Assembly (NCBI GenBank): GCA_947630115.1
Contig: CANRGG010000015.1
Location: 1-45,855, forward strand
Source: an uncultured Clostridia bacterium
Lineage (GTDB): Bacteria; Bacillota; Clostridia; Christensenellales; Borkfalkiaceae
Direction of reading: 5' to 3'
Length of the DNA stretch: 45,855 nucleotides
Made by a program: the position numbers and the translations under genes. The first letter of the stretch is position 1. The number at the start of each line of letters is the position of its first letter. Shown one piece after another: positions 22,342 to 41,449 of this stretch. A model generated the notes under the pieces. The model saw only the letters and a list, made by a program, of their open reading frames with translations, ran no database searches and was not told the origin of the DNA.

Positions 22342-22354
22342 TATGTCTGACATA
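22342..22354. promoter_or_regulatory. Palindrome TATGTC-T-GACATA, putative regulator site 1
   Basis: A perfect 6+1+6 palindrome between the divergent ykvI-like and PadR-type genes, 14 bp upstream of the padR -35 box. A second copy overlaps the padR start site. Such dyads fit a dimeric winged-helix regulator; binding is inferred. Confidence 0.6.
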
Positions 22355-22367
22355 GTACTTCATATCG

Positions 22368-22396
22368 TTGACAAAGGTTGTCGAATCCTGTATAAT
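22368..22396 (+). promoter_or_regulatory. Consensus promoter of the PadR-type gene
   Basis: TTGACA (22368-22373), 17-bp spacer, TATAAT (22391-22396): perfect consensus, with a TG immediately before the -10 box. The palindrome at 22397-22409 starts right after the -10 box and covers the expected start site. Confidence 0.92.
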
Positions 22397-22409
22397 TATG
22401 TCAGACATT
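22397..22409. promoter_or_regulatory. Palindrome ATGTC-A-GACAT, putative regulator site 2 (start-site operator)
   Basis: ATGTC-A-GACAT (22398-22408), flanked by further partial symmetry, lies between the -10 box and the AGGAGG ribosome site of the PadR-type gene. A bound repressor here would block its own transcription, suggesting autoregulation. Confidence 0.6.
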
Positions 22410-22424
22410 ATAAGGAGGTACTCT

Positions 22425-25400
22425 ATGAGCGACGATTTTTTCGGTGACTTTGACGATGACGACGAAGACGAAGAAGAAAACGTCCCTGCCGACGACGAAG
22501 ACGAAGAGACCGCCAACGACGGGGCGCCCTTGCAGGATGAGCCGCAGGAGCCCGCGGACGACGGGTCGGACGAAGCGCCCGAAAACTGCGCTTATGAGGA
22601 TATGAGCGACGAAGCGCCGATCCCCTCGGACGACGATCCCTTCGAGGACGAGTTCATGCTCAGCGGCAAAAAGTACAGACCCGTTAAAAACAGCGCTCCC
22701 CCGAGAGTTTTTGTCGAGCCCTTCTTCCCGGAAGAAAAGGAGGAGGACGACGACGAACAGGAGGCGCCCTTCGATCTTGCAAATTCCGCCGACGAACCCG
22801 CCGCGGATGAGACGGATGAGCCGGTCATCGACCGCGCGGAGATCTCCTCTGCTTCGCCCTTCGAGCCCTTCGAACGGGAGAGTGAAACGTCGTTCGAATT
22901 TTCGGAAGATCTGGTCGATCAAGAGCCTGAAGAGGCGGAAATCAAAGCGGACGAGCCCGAAAGCGAACCCGAAAAGATAACCGACGAGGCGGACATGCCC
23001 GAAAGCGAAGTCGAAGAAATAACCGACGAAGCGGACAAGCCCGAAAGTGAAGTCGAGGAGATAATCGCGGAAGCGGACAAGCCCGAAGAGACGCCCGCAT
23101 TCGCCCCCTATACTCGAGGCGATTGGAGCGATATCACCGAGGTCGATCCCAACGCGGAAATGCCGCTTTTCGAGGACGAAGAAACCCTTGAAGAGGAAAC
23201 GTTCGACCTTGCGGAAGAACTCTCCCCCGCCGCACAGGAAGAGACGGAAGACACGGCAGAAGCGGAAAAAATCGACCTTCCCGCGCCCGAGGAAACGACG
23301 CCCGAGGAAACGCTTTCTGCGCAGCCGGAAGCGGAACAAGAGGAATCTCCCGAAGCGGAACAGACGGAAGAATCGGGCGAAGAGACGGGCGAAAAGGACA
23401 AGGACGTCGATCATTCGGTCAGTTCCGACCTCATCCGCGGACACATCAACACGATCATTTTGCGCGCGCTCTACGACGGCGACAAGTACGGCTATGAGAT
23501 CATCGCCGAGATCGAGCGCAAGAGCCACGATCAATATACTTTGAAACAGCCTTCCCTTTACAGCGCCCTCAAGCGACTCGAAAAGGACGGGTACGTCACC
23601 TCTTATTGGGGCGGTTCGGTGAGCGGCGGCAGAAGAAAATATTTCTCCCTCACCGACCAGGGCAAGGAGATCTCCGAGCGCAACCAGTCGGAATGGGAAT
23701 ATTCGCGCACGGTCATCGACAGCCTCATTTCGGACAAGGATTTCGATTTCGGCTCCCCCGCCCCCGCCGCCGTCGATATGCGGGTGCTGAGAAAGAGCGT
23801 TTCGCGAGTGAAAAATTCGGGCGAAGAGGACGACGAAGAGTTCGACTATGAGGGCTATGACGGCGAATACGGCGAGCCCTTCGAGGATGAGGAGCCCGAA
23901 AGTTCTTCGCAGCATGAGAAAGCCGAAAGCTCTTTGGAAAGCGAGCGCGCGGCGCTCGAAGCGGAACGCGCCAAGCTCGAAGAGGCGATGAACGCCCGCG
24001 AGGAAATGCTCCGCATCCGCGAAGAAGCGGGCGCCCGCCGCGAGCAGGAGCTTTTGGAGCGCGAATTTGCCCTGCAAGCGGAACAAGAACGCCGCGAACA
24101 GGAAGCCGAAGAACAGCGGCTGTTCCTCGAATCGGAGGCGGAGCGGCTCCGCAACCTGGAGGAAGAGCAAAAGCGCGCCGAGGAAGAGGCAAAACAGCGG
24201 GCCGAAGAGGAAGAACGGCTCCGCGCCGAAGAAGAGCACGAGCGCGCCCTGGCCGAGGAGGCAAGACGCGCCGAGGAAACTCTCCGCGAGGAGGAATCCG
24301 CCCGTCTTACGGACGAAGAGGCGGAAAAAGAGCGTCTGGAAGAGGAAGAACGGCGCGCCGCGGCGGAAGAACAGGAAAAGCTCATCGCGGTGGCGGAAGA
24401 GGCCGCCCGCAAAGAAGAGCGCGAACGGGCGATCGCCGCTTTGATCGCACAGCGCGAAGAGGAAGAAAAACGCCGCGCCTTTGCCGCCGAGATCGCCATG
24501 GCACGCGCCGAGGAGACCGAACGGGTCCGCGCCGAAGAGAGCGCAAGGCTGCAAGCGGAAGAAGAGGCAAGACGGCAAGCCGAGGAGGAAGAACGGCTCC
24601 AAGCGGAAGAAGAGGCGAAACGCCAAGCCGAGGAAGAAGAACGGCTGCAGGCGGAAGAAGAGGCAAGACGCCAAGCCGAGGAAGAAGAGCGGCTGCAAGC
24701 GGAAGAAGAGGCGAAACGCCAAGCCGAGGAGGAAGAACGCCTCCGCGCCGAAGAAGAACATGAGCGCGCGCTTGCCGAAGAAGCAAAACGTGCCGAGGAA
24801 GAGCGGCTTCAAGCGGAAGCGGAAGACCTTCCGGAAGAGCCGGAGGAAATCGATGAGATCGACCGGGTTCGTTCCGTTGCGCAGGACGCGCAGAAGAGCG
24901 AGCAAAACGAGCGGATCGTGAGCATGGAGCCCTTCGCCAAGGAACGGGCGCAGATCGAAGAGCGGCACCGGCAGGAGATCGAGGAGATCAACCGCAGGCA
25001 CAACCGCGAGATGGAGAGAGCGATCAGCGAAGTCCGCGCGCAGGACGAAGAGATATTCCGCCGCCGCGAATTTGACCTTCTCGAAACGAATATGCGGCAC
25101 ATCGTCAACAATCTCGGCGGAGAGACGGCGCAGGAATATCAGGCGCCCGTCCAACAGCCCGCCGCGGATCCGGGCGAATTTTACGGCTCGGAGGGCGGAC
25201 AGGATTACCGTGCCTCTCTCAAACGGATCTATGTGACGGCGAAGCATGGCGGAGAGCCGCTCCCCGCGGAGGAAATGTCGCAGCCCTATTATGACAACTA
25301 TGCGCAGGTCCCTCCTCCCCCTGCCGCCGAACCGGTCCCCGAGACCCCGCCCATTTACCCGCCCTTCTCGCCCGCGCCGGCGCCCGCCCCTGCGGCGGAA

Positions 25401-25976
25401 AATGCCGAACCTTTCCGGACGGAGAAAAAGGAAAAGGCTCGCTCCGCCCGTTCGATCGACGGAATCGACTTCTACGATCTCGAAGAGCGCGCCAAGCAGG
25501 ACGGGATCGTCATCACGCTGGCGGGCGGAAGAAAGACGAAGGAACTCTCCGTGAAATCGGAAAGTCTGGTCAACAAGGGAAGAGCGCTTTTCTTGAGCGC
25601 GCTCATGGTGTTCCTGCTCTGCCTTGCAGAGGGAAGCCTCGCGCTCGGGCTGAGAGCCAAATTCCATCTGCCGATCTTCTACTCCTTCTTTATCTGGGGC
25701 GCGGGGCTCGCCCTGCTCCTTGTGACCGCCCTGCTCTTCATCAACCGATACGGAGAGAGAGCCCTGCGGCAGACGGGAAATCTGATCGTGAACGTCATCG
25801 TCACCTATGCGTTGATTGTGATCATCATTTTGATCTTCTCGCTCGCGACGCAGATCGACTTTACGAGTATCAACGATCTCATGACCTACATCATTTTCCC
25901 CGCGGTATTTTTCCTGAACATCATCGTATTCGGCGTGGCATACTACTTGCAGATCCGCCCGAATAACGAGGAATGA
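22425..25976 (+). CDS. Giant membrane-anchored PadR-type winged-helix regulator
   Basis: A 1183-residue protein. Residues 1-330 are low-complexity and strongly acidic. A clear PadR winged-helix domain lies at about 333-437: LIRGHINTIILRALYDGDKY, PSLYSALKRLEKDGYV, then the wing WGGSVSGGRRKYFSLTDQGK. Residues ~500-800 are a very long Glu/Arg/Ala-rich helix, including four 16-residue repeats (708-771); a second coiled-coil stretch spans ~826-902. After a Pro-rich linker the C terminus (from about 1050) has four hydrophobic segments, so the protein is probably tethered to the membrane with its DNA-binding domain in the cytoplasm. ATG at 22425 follows TAAGGAGGT and a consensus promoter. PadR proteins are normally ~110-200 residues and soluble, so this is highly unusual. 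Target genes and signal are unknown. Confidence 0.9.
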   Translation: MSDDFFGDFDDDDEDEEENVPADDEDEETANDGAPLQDEPQEPADDGSDEAPENCAYEDMSDEAPIPSDDDPFEDEFMLSGKKYRPVKNSAPPRVFVEPFFPEEKEEDDDEQEAPFDLANSADEPAADETDEPVIDRAEISSASPFEPFERESETSFEFSEDLVDQEPEEAEIKADEPESEPEKITDEADMPESEVEEITDEADKPESEVEEIIAEADKPEETPAFAPYTRGDWSDITEVDPNAEMPLFEDEETLEEETFDLAEELSPAAQEETEDTAEAEKIDLPAPEETTPEETLSAQPEAEQEESPEAEQTEESGEETGEKDKDVDHSVSSDLIRGHINTIILRALYDGDKYGYEIIAEIERKSHDQYTLKQPSLYSALKRLEKDGYVTSYWGGSVSGGRRKYFSLTDQGKEISERNQSEWEYSRTVIDSLISDKDFDFGSPAPAAVDMRVLRKSVSRVKNSGEEDDEEFDYEGYDGEYGEPFEDEEPESSSQHEKAESSLESERAALEAERAKLEEAMNAREEMLRIREEAGARREQELLEREFALQAEQERREQEAEEQRLFLESEAERLRNLEEEQKRAEEEAKQRAEEEERLRAEEEHERALAEEARRAEETLREEESARLTDEEAEKERLEEEERRAAAEEQEKLIAVAEEAARKEERERAIAALIAQREEEEKRRAFAAEIAMARAEETERVRAEESARLQAEEEARRQAEEEERLQAEEEAKRQAEEEERLQAEEEARRQAEEEERLQAEEEAKRQAEEEERLRAEEEHERALAEEAKRAEEERLQAEAEDLPEEPEEIDEIDRVRSVAQDAQKSEQNERIVSMEPFAKERAQIEERHRQEIEEINRRHNREMERAISEVRAQDEEIFRRREFDLLETNMRHIVNNLGGETAQEYQAPVQQPAADPGEFYGSEGGQDYRASLKRIYVTAKHGGEPLPAEEMSQPYYDNYAQVPPPPAAEPVPETPPIYPPFSPAPAPAPAAENAEPFRTEKKEKARSARSIDGIDFYDLEERAKQDGIVITLAGGRKTKELSVKSESLVNKGRALFLSALMVFLLCLAEGSLALGLRAKFHLPIFYSFFIWGAGLALLLVTALLFINRYGERALRQTGNLIVNVIVTYALIVIIILIFSLATQIDFTSINDLMTYIIFPAVFFLNIIVFGVAYYLQIRPNNEE
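24546..24737 (+). repeat. Four 48-bp tandem repeats in the PadR-type gene
   Basis: Four consecutive near-identical 48-bp units, each encoding the 16-residue pattern RLQAEEEA(R/K)RQAEEEE. They lie in the long charged helix and suggest recent expansion by slippage or unequal recombination; copy number may vary between strains. Confidence 0.9.
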
Positions 25977-29467: not shown

Positions 29468-29507
29468 AAAAACAGGTATTATGTCAGACATAATACTATG
29501 CAAAACC
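29468..29507 (-). repeat. 40-nt palindromic element, copy A
   Basis: Core 29476-29496 is a perfect inverted repeat: arm GTATTATGTC, single centre A, complementary arm. Read on the minus strand it begins GGTTTTGCATAGTA and ends in TGTTTTT. Copy B at 37857-37896 (plus strand) matches at 34 of 40 positions by eye. The core ATGTC-N-GACAT is also in the padR control region. It begins at the stop codon of the ygjP-like gene, so it could act as a weak terminator or as a regulator site. Confidence 0.75.
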
Positions 29508-37856: not shown

Positions 37857-37896
37857 GGTTTTGCATAGTAATATGCGTGACATAGTACTTGTTTTT
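37857..37896 (+). repeat. 40-nt palindromic element, copy B
   Basis: Plus-strand copy of the element at 29468-29507: the same GGTTTTGCATAGTA start, a degenerate core (ATATGCGTGACATAGTAC) and TGTTTTT end. It overlaps the first base of the ku stop codon region, as copy A abuts the ygjP-like stop codon, but in the opposite orientation to the gene. Confidence 0.7.
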
Positions 37897-38746
37897 ATGC
37901 CTCTTTTTTGGTTTTTGCGCTGCGAGGACGGGCTGCGCTCTTGTGCGCGGACGCGGCAGACGCGGCCTTTTTGCGCTTTATCGTCCCCTTTTCGGCGTTC
38001 TTCACGCTCGCTTTCAAGGCTTCCATGAGGTCGATGATCACCCCGGGCTTTTCGTCCTTGGGTGCGGTCACGGTCTTTCCCGCGATCTTGTCCGCGATGA
38101 GCGCTTTCAGTTTCTCCTGAAACTCATCCTTATATTTTTCGGGCGCAAAGGGCTCCTCCATGCTCTTGACGAGCTGCTTTGCGATCTCGAGTTCGCCCTC
38201 CGTCGCCTTGGGACGCTCGTAATCGACGGGGATCTCCTTGATGTCGCTCTGAAACAGAAGAGTCTGGATAAGCATGCCGTCCTCGCGCGGGATGATGACG
38301 AGCAATTTTTCTGAATTTCCGAACACCGTTTTGCCGAGCGCGGCGCGCCCCGTCTCCATCATCGCGCGGCGCAACAGCTCGAGTGCTTTCCCGCCCCCTT
38401 TTTGCGGCACGACGTAATAAGCCTTGTCATAGTAGACGGGACTGATCTCATCGAGGGCGGTGAAACACAGAATTGTGATCGTCCTGTCCTTCTCCGTCTT
38501 GATCTTTTCGATCTCCTCGTCGGTGATGACGACGTATTGGTCCTTCGCGTACTGAAAACCGCGCACGATGTCCTTTGGCTCGACCTCTTTTCCGCAGTGG
38601 GCGCAGACTTTTTTATAGCGGATCCGCGATTTGTCCGCCTTGTGAAGCTGGTTGAACGCGATGTCGCTGTCCTGCGTCGCGGTGTAGAGACTGACGGGGA
38701 TGTAGACGAGCCCGAACGAGATCGCCCCCTTCTGGATGACTGCCAT
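37895..38746 (-). CDS. ku: Ku homologue, non-homologous end joining
   Basis: A 283-residue bacterial Ku that binds DNA double-strand ends as a homodimer and recruits LigD. Seen: N-terminal KGAISFGLVYIPVSLYTAT, FNQLHKADKSRIRYKKVCAHCG with a Cys pair, VVITDEEIEKI, VYYDKAYYVVP, and KQLVKSMEEPFAPEKYKDEF. The C-terminal ~30 residues are a Lys/Ala/Ser-rich tail (IKRKKAASAASAHKSAAR), like the DNA-binding tails of other bacterial Ku proteins. GGAGGGAAG precedes the ATG. It is divergent from ligD with a 102-bp gap. Confidence 0.95.
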   Translation of the reverse strand: MAVIQKGAISFGLVYIPVSLYTATQDSDIAFNQLHKADKSRIRYKKVCAHCGKEVEPKDIVRGFQYAKDQYVVITDEEIEKIKTEKDRTITILCFTALDEISPVYYDKAYYVVPQKGGGKALELLRRAMMETGRAALGKTVFGNSEKLLVIIPREDGMLIQTLLFQSDIKEIPVDYERPKATEGELEIAKQLVKSMEEPFAPEKYKDEFQEKLKALIADKIAGKTVTAPKDEKPGVIIDLMEALKASVKNAEKGTIKRKKAASAASAHKSAARPRSAKTKKEA

Positions 38747-38833
38747 AAACTTCCCTCCGCTTAAAATCTGCCCGTTTTGAGGTCGCGATATTCCGGATCG
38801 GGAAAATTCGCCGATAAAATTCCGCCGATTTTC

Positions 38834-38848
38834 ATATCCTGTGGATAT
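38834..38848. promoter_or_regulatory. Palindrome at the ligD start codon
   Basis: ATATCC-TGT-GGATAT, a perfect 6+3+6 dyad ending directly at the ligD ATG (38849). No Shine-Dalgarno site is visible there, so it may be an operator or a translation-blocking hairpin. TAAAAT at 38815-38820 is a possible -10 box. Confidence 0.4.
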
Positions 38849-41449
38849 ATGGCAGAGGAAAAACTTGAAAAATACCGCGAAAAACGCGATTTTACAATCA
38901 CGCGTGAGCCGAAAGGCAGGCTTTCGCGCTCCAAAAAAGACAAACTTCGCTTTTCCGTCCAGCGGCATGTGGCGCGGGCGGATCATTTCGATCTGCGGCT
39001 CGAATACGGCGGGGTCGCTTTGAGCTGGGCGGTTCCGAAGGGGCCCTCCTATTCGACGGGCGACAAGCGGCTTGCCATGCGCGTCGAGGATCATCCCGTG
39101 GATTACATGGATTTCGAAGGCACGATCCCAAAGGGCGAATACGGCGGCGGGACGGTGATGCTCTGGGACGAAGGAGAGTGGATCCCCCGCTTTTCCCCCG
39201 AAAAAGGGCTCAAAGAGGGCTCGCTCAAATTTTTTCTGAGCGGAAAACGGCTCAAAGGGAATTGGGCGCTCGTGCGCATGGACGGAAAACGGGAGATGAG
39301 CGGCGAGCCGTGGCTGCTCATCAAGGAGCGCGACGAATTCGCAAAGAGCTCGGCGGGGATCTCCCGCTTCACCCGCGGCGTGCGCTCGGGCAAGAGCATG
39401 AAGGAGATCGCCGGCGAAAGCATGAAAAATCCCTTTGGAAAGGCCGAAGTCATGCTCGCGGAACCCTGCGCGGAACTTCCCAAGGAGAAGGGCTGGCTCT
39501 TCGAGCTCAAATATGACGGGCACCGCACCCTCGGGTACTGCGAAGGCGGGCGGGCGGCGCTGAAAACGCGGAACGGATACGACTGCACCGCCTCTTTCCC
39601 CGCGGCGGCAAGGGCGCTCGAAACGCTTTTCGGCGAACGGGCGGCGATTGTGGACGGGGAGATGGTCGTCGCAGGACAGGACGGGATCCCCGACTTTTCC
39701 GCCCTGCAAGCCCATCTCAAAGACCCGACAACGGGCGGGCTTTGCTACGTTTTGTTCGATCTTTTGTCGCTCGACGGGGAAGATCTTCGAAAAAAGCCCC
39801 TCAAAGAGCGCAAAGAACGGCTCAAAAAACTGCTTGAAAAGACGGAAGCGGGCGGGGTCCTTTCATACAGCGCGCACGCCGAAAGACTGACGGCGCGGCA
39901 GATCCGCGCGATCAAAGACCGCGGTATGGAGGGGATCGTCGCCAAGCGGGCGGATTCCCCCTACGTTTCAGGCAGAAACGGCGACTGGCAAAAGCTCAAA
40001 TTCCGCGGCGCGCGGGAGTTTGTCGTCGGCGGCTTTTCCCTTTCCGAAACGGGAGAGCTGCGCTCCCTGCTGGTCGGCTATTATGAAAACGGCAAACTCG
40101 TCTTTGCGGGCAAGGTCGGGACGGGATTCGGCGAGCGCGAGAAAAAGGAGCTCAAAGACGGGCTTTCGAGGCTCGCGCAAAAGATCGCGCCCTTTGCGAG
40201 CATTCCCCCGTCCTACTCGAAAAATGCCGTTTTTGTCCGGCCTGAGTGCCTCGCGCAAGTCGAATATGCCCAGATCACGCCGAACGGCCTTTTGCGGCAG
40301 GCGAGTTTCAAGGGGCTGCGCCGCGACAAGTCCCCTCTCGACGTTGGCAGCGAAATCCCCGCCACGCGCAAGAAAAGCATAGGGCTTTCCTCAGGAAGTA
40401 AGAAAAGTACGAGCAGCTCCCCGAGCGAAAAAAGCACAGAACGCGCCTCAACAAGTAAGAAAAGTACGAGTAGCTCCTCGAGCGAAAAAAGCACAGGCCG
40501 CGCTACGAAAAGCAAAAAAAATGCCGGACGCGCTGAAAAAAGCAAGAAAAATGCGGAGGGAGCGGAGGTATGCGGCGTTCTCATCACCCATCCCGAAAAG
40601 GTGATGTTCCCCGATCGCGGGCTCACGAAGCTGTCGCTTGCAAAGTACTATGCGGAGGCGGCGCCGCGAATGCTGCCCTTTTTGAAAGACAGGTTTTTGA
40701 GCCTTGTCTGCTGTCCTTCGGGGATCGAAGGCGAGCGGTTTTTTCGAAAACATCTGGAAGGTTCGTTCCGGGGGGTGGGCTTTGCGCCCGAAAACGAGGA
40801 GGAAGGCGCCGAAATCGGCGAAACGGAGGGCGGAACAGAGAACTTTTTCGTGAAAAATGAAAGCGGGATCCTCGCGCTCGTGCAGTACAATGCGGTCGAA
40901 TTTCACGTCCGCGCGGGAAAAAAATCGGCAAAAAGACCGGATACCATGGTGCTTGACCTCGATCCCGACGAGGGGCTCCCCCTTTCCAAGACGAGGCGGG
41001 GCGCAAGAGAGCTCAAAAAAATTCTGGAGGGACTCGGGCTCGTCTCCTTCCTCAAAACGAGCGGCGGCAAGGGGTATCATCTCGTCGTGCCCTTCGCAAA
41101 CGGCGGCAGCGCCGAAACTTTCCGCAGTTTTGCGAGGAACGTCGCCCTTCTCGCCGAGAAAACCTTTCCCGATCTTTTTACGGCGGAGATGTCCAAAAAG
41201 GCGCGCGGGGGGAAGATCTTTCTCGATTGGCAGCGGAACAGCCCCAAGGCGACGAGCGCCGCGCCATACAGCGTTCGCGCCCGCGAAGGTGCGCCCGTCT
41301 CCATGCCCATCTTTTGGGAGGAGCTTTCGAAGATCGCCCCGTCCGCGATCACGATTGAGAAGGCTCGAAAACGTCTTGCAATGCCCGACCCGTGGGCGGA
41401 TTTCTTCTCGGTCAAGAAAAACCAGCGGCTCGGCGCTGTCAAAAATTGA
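38849..41449 (+). CDS. ligD: ATP-dependent DNA ligase LigD (3'-phosphoesterase, ligase and polymerase)
   Basis: An 866-residue NHEJ enzyme with domain order PE-LIG-POL. The 3'-phosphoesterase part (about residues 33-150) keeps the metal/catalytic pattern H40, H46, D48, R50 and H82. The ligase core starts near 205, with adenylated Lys221 in LKYDGHR and VDGEMVV; its OB fold ends near 505. A Ser/Lys/Thr-rich linker with repeats (about 512-570) joins the polymerase, which opens with VLITHPEKVMFPD near 575 and holds the metal Asp pair D703/D705 in LDLDPD and KTSGGKGYHLVVPF. The order is that of Pseudomonas LigD, not the mycobacterial POL-PE-LIG. ATG at 38849 was preferred to an upstream in-frame TTG. 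Works with the divergent ku. Confidence 0.95.
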   Translation: MAEEKLEKYREKRDFTITREPKGRLSRSKKDKLRFSVQRHVARADHFDLRLEYGGVALSWAVPKGPSYSTGDKRLAMRVEDHPVDYMDFEGTIPKGEYGGGTVMLWDEGEWIPRFSPEKGLKEGSLKFFLSGKRLKGNWALVRMDGKREMSGEPWLLIKERDEFAKSSAGISRFTRGVRSGKSMKEIAGESMKNPFGKAEVMLAEPCAELPKEKGWLFELKYDGHRTLGYCEGGRAALKTRNGYDCTASFPAAARALETLFGERAAIVDGEMVVAGQDGIPDFSALQAHLKDPTTGGLCYVLFDLLSLDGEDLRKKPLKERKERLKKLLEKTEAGGVLSYSAHAERLTARQIRAIKDRGMEGIVAKRADSPYVSGRNGDWQKLKFRGAREFVVGGFSLSETGELRSLLVGYYENGKLVFAGKVGTGFGEREKKELKDGLSRLAQKIAPFASIPPSYSKNAVFVRPECLAQVEYAQITPNGLLRQASFKGLRRDKSPLDVGSEIPATRKKSIGLSSGSKKSTSSSPSEKSTERASTSKKSTSSSSSEKSTGRATKSKKNAGRAEKSKKNAEGAEVCGVLITHPEKVMFPDRGLTKLSLAKYYAEAAPRMLPFLKDRFLSLVCCPSGIEGERFFRKHLEGSFRGVGFAPENEEEGAEIGETEGGTENFFVKNESGILALVQYNAVEFHVRAGKKSAKRPDTMVLDLDPDEGLPLSKTRRGARELKKILEGLGLVSFLKTSGGKGYHLVVPFANGGSAETFRSFARNVALLAEKTFPDLFTAEMSKKARGGKIFLDWQRNSPKATSAAPYSVRAREGAPVSMPIFWEELSKIAPSAITIEKARKRLAMPDPWADFFSVKKNQRLGAVKN
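40391..40560 (+). repeat. Tandem repeats in the ligD linker
   Basis: Two near-identical 57-bp units (40391-40447 and 40448-40504, seven differences by eye) are followed by two ~30-bp units rich in AAAAAGC. They encode a Ser/Thr/Lys linker (SKKSTSSSPSEKS, then SKKNAGRAEKSKKNA) between ligase and polymerase domains. Confidence 0.85.

Follow-up and report, generated by a model that had tools for sequence, protein, structure and literature searches.

What would a winged-helix regulator of the PadR family do on a long rod that runs into the membrane? This question is raised by a gene in a 45,855-nucleotide stretch of DNA (the window), contig CANRGG010000015.1 of assembly GCA_947630115.1, from an uncultured Clostridia bacterium of the order Christensenellales (family Borkfalkiaceae). 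The genome (G000) comprises 1.61 Mb in 54 contigs, and the window is its contig 15. We analyzed the gene, its relatives, its genomic surroundings and a palindrome at its promoter. The results suggested, with a probability of roughly 0.6, that the protein is a chromosome-terminus membrane tether; it probably ties the terminus to the membrane before division, since the gene and its presumed binding sites lie where replication ends.

A PadR head, a rod and a predicted membrane anchor in one chain

Pfam analysis of the protein located a PadR domain (PF03551) at residues 345–415 (67.6 bits, cut-off 27, E-value 9e-19), the sole domain reported at E-values up to 0.1, while the NCBIfam PadR model matched residues 338–435, under that model's own cut-off. 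No FtsK-type ATPase domain was reported for the protein by Pfam and NCBIfam at E-values up to 0.1. This gene is the only PF03551 match in the window genome (E-value 0.001). Hydropathy indicated four C-terminal hydrophobic segments (residues 1048–1066, 1088–1106, 1120–1138 and 1153–1171), and AlphaFold2 (AF2) modeled the membrane region as helices with block predicted local distance difference test (pLDDT) values of 85–96. The AF2 model of a 536-residue homologue contains a winged helix and a single 140-residue helix (pLDDT about 90) together with four membrane helices (pLDDT mostly above 90), and the PadR-family fold was matched by a homologue's structure model. The layout that an earlier note had read from the letters, a PadR head, a rod and four C-terminal hydrophobic segments, is borne out by these analyses. 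The ATG start is preceded at a short distance by AAGGAGG. The acidic front carries a net charge of about −114 with 39% aspartate and glutamate (measured on row L001, the same gene with its 3' side cut). Tandem DNA repeats are present both in this front (42 bp × 3.4, 22945–23087) and in the rod (48 bp × 4.4, 24547–24757), suggesting that the lengths of the two parts are lineage-specific. A 1247-residue antisense open reading frame is taken for a shadow of the GAG/GAA rod.

A contig scan with the PadR block gave 352 loci, the best 80 of which (85–98% identity) served as close homologues; they were picked by PadR-block match, not by genus, and four of their contigs are named Candidatus Gallimonas. 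PadR is present in all of them by construction, as the PadR block was the query. Two of these loci are cut by contig ends. The other 78 are 3'-complete, and all of them have open frames with four C-terminal hydrophobic segments and distinct C-termini, so a frameshift-joined artefact was rejected. Among 44 chosen sequences, the PadR block averages 91% column identity, compared with 59% for the membrane part. The acidic front ranges from a few to about 360 residues in the homologues and is short in most, the linker of the close homologues is equally variable in length, and the relatives measure about 430–1170 residues in total. The acidic front and the giant rod are variable extras, and the head is nearly invariant. 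The earlier note had emphasized a giant protein: the 1183 residues are real, but size is not the point, as homologues of 430–600 residues share the head and the membrane part.

Across the order, the PadR profile was matched by 196 of 248 genomes and the genus-level membrane profile by 27 of 248. The PadR block was matched in all 41 genomes of the genus, with E-values below 1e-75 in 40; the match in G002 covers 28 positions only, in an 84-residue frame. A distant set was formed by 59 long-frame loci of other genera, one to few per genus, from the matches listed (L200 in this batch is a filler without a match). All 59 proteins, 432–970 residues in length, combine an N-terminal PadR domain with C-terminal hydrophobic segments, four or more in 51 of them. 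A homologue search had been set beforehand as a test of the layout, and the membrane part was kept in the close and the distant set alike. Among the matches listed from 196 genomes of the class, every PadR frame of at least 400 residues is in this order, and the longest frame outside it has 234 residues. For some genomes of the order (e.g., G055 and G078), the PadR frames listed are all short; the fusion therefore characterizes much of one order without extending to every member. The small stand-alone size typical of the PadR family, which is not strictly defining, is exceeded by a protein of 1183 residues with four predicted membrane helices. The named relatives are almost all metagenome assemblies, the genomes with G numbers are mostly fragmented, and genes were called by a simple codon-score caller.

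Linkage of the gene to a dif-like site and Xer

A tyrosine recombinase of 352–362 residues is encoded at the guanine-cytosine (GC) skew switch of two Gallimonas genomes, G015 and G142. XerS was the best NCBIfam match of all five recombinases tested, each below the cut-off. Alignment of the upstream region of the recombinase in four genomes revealed one conserved inverted repeat, the dif-like 26-mer ATTCGYAAAANNNGTGTTTTGCGAAT. Standing mostly near the XerS-like recombinase, it is apparently the dimer-resolution site of this order, and the 26-mer would correspond to dif. In streptococci and lactococci, XerS is linked to difSL at the terminus (PMC2731167, in excerpt).

The regions around the distant PadR genes (loci L142–L201, up to 16 kb each) contain a dif-like site with at most three mismatches in 28 of 59 cases, distributed over ten families. 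The site is upstream of the PadR gene in all 28, at a median distance of about 1 kb (range 0.1–7.2 kb), and a Xer homologue was found in 40 of the 59 loci. With one dif per 1.7 Mb, about 0.5 such loci would be expected by chance (P 6e-43). The 80 close-homologue loci, used as a control, contain neither a dif-like site (best match six mismatches) nor a Xer homologue; on the Gallimonas contigs G015:C7 and G142:C2, about 72 kb separate dif from the copy of the palindrome (described below) at the gene's promoter. The linkage of the gene to dif and Xer is the strongest and least selected evidence and is independent of the palindrome, and for most of the order the case rests on this linkage to a predicted dif.

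A palindrome at the promoter and its dispersed copies

The palindrome TATGTCTGACATA is located next to the −35 element of the gene (Table 1). In 52 of the 80 homologous loci, the 1200 bp 5' of the PadR domain include an exact palindrome, and TATGTCNGACATA is exact in 49 of 79 gene upstream regions (shuffles 0.0). The reduced pattern TATG-N5-CATA was present in 64 of 79 close-homologue upstream regions, compared with 0.48 expected, and upstream of the gene at 12 of the 59 loci from other genera, compared with 0.68 expected. Besides the window, 18 loci carry an exact palindrome 4.4–6.9 kb downstream of PadR. An ATGT/ACAT inverted repeat is characteristic of PadR operators, in which stand-alone repressors use the spacing ATGT-N8-10-ACAT (PMC3506622, in excerpt). 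Here the repeat likewise stands at the protein's own promoter, but unlike the operators of LmrR and other stand-alone PadR repressors (about 110–130 residues) it reads ATGT-N3-ACAT, within a longer TACTAT-N7-ATAGTA. From the conserved promoter position, this ATGT/ACAT character and the single PadR match in the window genome, we infer that this PadR binds the palindrome. At loci L243, L246, L255 and L258, TATGTCTGACATA is accompanied by nearby TATGCGTGACATA- or TATGTCACGCATA-like palindromes, which hints at cooperative binding. In family f3 (L159 and L166; L157 is similar), ACTATTATA and TATAATAGT flank the PadR −35 element and replace the TATG palindrome, perhaps reflecting a shifted binding specificity.

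The core TATGTCWGACATA occurs in 25 exact copies in the window genome, compared with none of the reversed control. Exact copies are present in 39 of the 41 genus genomes (0–34 each), and the control gave one copy across all 41. The consensus of 53 gene-oriented sites is (TTTTGCATA)RTAYTATGTCWGACATARTAY, with the extension TTTTGCATA on one side only, left of the palindrome. The 82 exact copies placed in eight genus genomes divide into 46 between co-oriented genes, 16 in convergent and 2 in divergent intergenic regions, 14 within genes and 4 at contig ends. Among the 39 non-promoter tandem copies, 25 follow a stop codon at a distance of no more than 64 bp. Only 2 of 57 intergenic non-promoter sites are in divergent regions, which make up 24% of intergenic bases (P 3e-5), indicating that the copies avoid promoters; in the window genome the count is 0 of 19 (P 0.006). 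All P values are nominal, copies at one orthologous place in several genomes are not independent, and the non-promoter tallies of placement, orthology and polarity include one promoter site, L332 of G001.

This placement bears on whether the protein is a membrane-bound transcription regulator: a one-component sensor, comparable to HAAS and PadR fused together, in which changes in the membrane cause operators to be released or moved. The PadR domain, the palindrome beside its own −35 element and the 19 of 39 tandem sites (one being the G001 promoter site) located 20–51 bp before the next start codon are all compatible with such a sensor. The site profile also allows a weak promoter, TTTGCA-N17-TARTAY, to be read from extension plus palindrome, and HAAS-PadR pairs connect membrane proteins to PadR (PMC11237479, in excerpt). 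A sensor does not explain, however, the avoidance of divergent regions, the copies inside genes and between convergent genes, the linkage to dif or the clustering at the terminus, and the 26 neighbor proteins scanned have mixed housekeeping functions that form no pathway. We consider it improbable. The earlier note's suggestion that the protein reports membrane state finds no support on the same grounds, and a membrane-stress reporter was ranked below the tether, given that the presumed sites are not positioned like promoter elements and that the scanned neighbors share no regulon theme. No HAAS domain (DUF1700/1129/1048) was found among the scanned neighbor proteins in the window; in the C-termini of 48 homologues, DUF1129 matched only 2 (best E-value 0.005) and no consistent HAAS-type Pfam match appeared.

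Many of the positions are shared by different species with dissimilar flanks. They include sites within dxs, miaA and spoIIIAE, one separating a nadD-like gene from rsfS, one upstream of thrS and others (gene names were assigned by Pfam). A conserved copy also stands between a PRC-barrel gene and a gene with the DnaB_2 domain ("replication initiation and membrane attachment") at L273:3660 and at the same place in four other genomes.

Selection on the copy inside dxs

The dxs genes provide a clean test, because they were fetched regardless of the site. The sample comprises 36 genes identified by Pfam (L341–L370 and L410–L415) and omits five of the 41 genomes (G001, G003, G552, G553 and G555), of which G001 and G552 have the site. 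The core is matched exactly in 17 of the 36 genes, with one mismatch in 13, two in 3 and six or more in 3. The isoleucine codon in the core is the rare ATA in all 32 genes with isoleucine there, compared with 5.4% elsewhere in the same genes (nominal P 2e-41, the species not being independent), and the preceding serine is encoded by AGT in 31 of 36, compared with 6% elsewhere. Same-residue third-base identity reaches its maximum within the gene at the stretch of the site (0.81, compared with a mean of 0.50 and a standard deviation of 0.07). The codon bias and this identity peak indicate selection at the DNA level within coding sequence; the copies are kept by selection.

Codon-level selection also leads us to set aside neutral repeats, in which dispersed palindromic elements of the REP or RPE kind would have spread in the genus and would resemble the promoter palindrome by chance, with PadR regulating only itself. 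Repeats would suit the variation from 0 to 34 copies, the longer flanks shared by many copies in the window genome and the copies found in frame within genes. The constraint in dxs and the recurrence at the same places in divergent species with diverged flanks both call for a function, and repeats are not expected to gather round dif, which makes this origin very improbable.

Copies around the replication terminus

We analyzed three chosen contigs, the whole of G015:C7 and G142:C2 from Gallimonas and 400 kb of G056:C1 from another family. On all three, the GC skew flips from plus to minus with genes converging on the switch, which marks the switch as the replication terminus. An origin at this position was rejected, because the genes converge there and the dif-like site lies there. 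ATTCGYAAAANNNGTGTTTTGCGAAT occurs once per contig without mismatch, the next-best place having five or more mismatches, and adjoins the XerS-like recombinase on two of the three. A copy of the palindrome starts 242 bp (G015), 227 bp (G142) and 338 bp (G056) from it.

The terminus contigs hold 6 of 7 exact copies of the G015 genome, 5 of 7 of G142 (the promoter copy being counted in both) and 7 of 7 of G056. With up to one mismatch, the numbers rise to 10, 10 and 16, above those of all 119 other letter arrangements, and the copies flank the terminus on all three chosen contigs. In G056, 15 of 16 copies lie within 130 kb of the dif-like site (P 0.006 for a uniform distribution over 400 kb). Orthology places 28 of 69 non-promoter sites from seven other genomes on the terminus contigs of G015 and G142, the two from Gallimonas, where at most 17% would be expected; one of the 69 in fact belongs to a promoter. 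Dispersed copies are demonstrated in Gallimonas and, in detail, in G056 as the single genome from a different family.

Direction of the sites

Because the extension is on one side only, the copies can be assigned a direction. A matrix was trained on seven other genomes; by its scores, all 10 copies in G015 (one of them by no more than 0.1) and 9 of 10 in G142 point toward the skew terminus, and the G142 exception fits as well when dif is taken as the terminus. This exception and the G015 near-tie are the dif-adjacent copies, which share the same gene geometry and lack the extension. In seven more genomes, with replichores assigned by orthology and a consensus from a profile that includes those genomes, 30 of 75 sites were placed: 24 toward the terminus, 1 away and 5 ambiguous. 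Sites on both sides that face the terminus, a trait of the Bacillus subtilis replication terminator RTP, are thus present in 19 of 20 cases on two contigs and in 13 of 16, mostly by small margins, on the third (G056), with gene direction as a partial confounder.

Such sites would also suit a polar replication fork trap resembling RTP, in which facing sites pass incoming forks and stop overshooting ones, and the anchor holds the paused fork. With the extension first and the perfect palindrome after it, the order of the elements would be consistent with permissive entry. There is a close resemblance between PadR dimers and RTP; RTP sites consist of two half-sites of unequal strength, and a terminator site within the rtp promoter provides autoregulation (PMC3506622 and PMC10331603, in excerpt). 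However, up to 34 copies are many for a trap. Most sites are on co-oriented genes, and the genes in these regions are mostly transcribed in the direction of the fork, so that part of the polarity could stem from transcription. Among non-co-oriented sites of the seven genomes, 8 point toward the terminus, 1 away and 2 are ambiguous, but the 8 include two PadR-promoter sites and one dif-adjacent site whose side flips with dif as the terminus, and four of the convergent cases represent a single orthologous place, with 3 toward and 1 away. The corresponding figures for G015 and G142 are 4 toward (two of them promoter sites), 1 against and 1 undecided, and the sole head-on copy in G056 points against. 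Promoter and dif-adjacent copies are counted in both tallies, and some represent one orthologous place. Polarity toward the terminus is likely but not proven. Because of the likeness to RTP in the winged-helix dimer, the facing sites and the autoregulation, a fork barrier is a serious rival or a second function, although as the explanation of the protein we regard it as unlikely.

Features of the window

The coordinates of the features are collected in Table 1. At window positions 37895–41449, Ku (PF02735) stands beside LigD (ligase and primase-polymerase) on opposite strands, a non-homologous end-joining pair.

Table 1. Features of the PadR locus (window coordinates) and positions of the dif-like site in other loci
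Feature	Position	Strand	Basis
Gene of the membrane-anchored (predicted) PadR protein, 1183 residues	22425..25976	+	Frame, Pfam, hydropathy
Acidic variable front, residues 1–332	22425..23420	+	Composition; 42-bp tandem repeat inside
PadR winged-helix block, about residues 333–460	23421..23805	+	Pfam; column identity; homologue fold
Glu/Arg-rich rod, about residues 505–875	23937..25049	+	Sequence; 48-bp repeat; homologue's modeled long helix
Conserved membrane-proximal segment DGIDF.DLE.RA..DGI	25461..25562	+	Homologue alignment
Four predicted transmembrane helices, residues 1048–1171	25566..25937	+	Hydropathy; AF2
Palindrome TATGTCTGACATA, promoter copy of the presumed binding site	22342..22354	.	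Exact match; ends 13 bp before −35
−35 element TTGACA	22368..22373	+	Read from sequence
−10 element TATAAT, 17-bp spacer	22391..22396	+	Read from sequence
Second palindrome copy, one mismatch, directly after −10	22397..22409	.	Pattern match
Further exact palindrome copy	29480..29492	-	14 bp past the called stop of a YgjP-like gene
dif-like site ATTCGYAAAANNNGTGTTTTGCGAAT	L418:3941-3966, L431:14380-14405, L439:19242-19267	not stated	Sequence match

Discussion

Our analysis points to a chromosome-terminus membrane tether that is perhaps also a polar fork barrier. In this mechanism, the PadR heads would probably be paired through the PadR dimer helix and the coiled-coil rod, and would bind the palindromes RTAYTATGTCWGACATARTAY, which cluster around dif within some 130 kb. 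The rod would span the cytoplasm, with the four-helix C-terminus as the membrane anchor of the complex. This arrangement may keep the XerS-like recombinase and the dif region at the membrane or future septum for the last replication steps and dimer resolution. The gene would set its own level through the site at its promoter and may stay near xerS-dif because it serves the same step. The earlier note had proposed that the protein could bring target DNA to the membrane, and the location of the presumed sites and of the gene, at the terminus and near dif, lends independent support to this proposal.

Several observations weigh against the tether. The three terminus contigs were picked after copies had been seen to crowd there, and the PadR contigs of other genomes, mostly short, show a small excess of copies or none (0 of 6 in G018). 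A dif-like site near the gene was found in 0 of 6 loci of genus g18 (family f1), 0 of 3 of f29, 0 of 2 of f14 and 0 of 1 of f20, and other genera show no clear enrichment of the palindrome around dif. Eight of the 59 distant homologues have fewer than four predicted membrane helices. Genomes G012, G549 and G108 have the protein and no exact copy of the palindrome, and the site is missing from 3 of the 36 dxs genes. In the sister genus g18, the promoter variant has 0–2 exact copies per genome (7 genomes; 6 copies in total, 4 before the PadR gene and 2 elsewhere), so dispersed copies are not universal. Finally, the support comes from sequence, and binding, membrane insertion and cellular role are predictions.

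Comparison with known systems revealed both likeness and difference. As in B. subtilis RTP/Ter, a winged-helix dimer (predicted here) is combined with sites in both replichores facing the terminus and a site in its own promoter, the same palindrome standing at the promoter and round the terminus, with binding presumed. RTP is small and soluble, whereas here PadR is placed on a rod with four membrane helices, the site sequence differs, the sites are more numerous and the gene is linked to XerS and dif. The rtp gene lies in the terminus region (PMC7515245, in excerpt), as does the gene here, and PadR proteins are described as lacking significant sequence homology to RTP (PMC3506622, in excerpt). 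MatP/matS of Enterobacteria offers a 13-bp palindromic core across the terminus region and a link between terminus and division machinery; MatP has an unrelated fold and no membrane helices, while the sites here are one-sided and the protein itself is predicted to be membrane-anchored. FtsK and SpoIIIE likewise have four membrane helices, a long variable linker and a winged helix that reads polar sequences toward dif. In contrast to them, no ATPase domain was found here, the winged helix comes first and the membrane part last, and the winged helix is of the PadR family. HAAS-PadR two-gene systems also link PadR to a multi-membrane protein, but PadR stands alone there and the HAAS protein is separate (PMC11237479, in excerpt), unlike the single chain of this study.

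A bolder reading, to which we would give somewhat less than even odds, is that this order of Clostridia has an unrecognized terminus system, in which an anchored PadR near xerS-dif reads polar, dif-facing sites and acts as both tether and one-way fork gate, under a constraint strong enough to keep sites inside coding genes such as dxs. Outside a few model bacterial groups, how the end of the chromosome is held and finished is largely open, and fork traps and MatP are known from few groups. If the tether is real, it would represent another, independent, widespread single-gene solution tied to xerS-dif and a direct physical link between terminus and membrane. It would also illustrate how PadR repressors, which resemble RTP in structure, can turn into proteins of chromosome architecture. 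The prediction names the site, the protein and the place, which makes it sharp.

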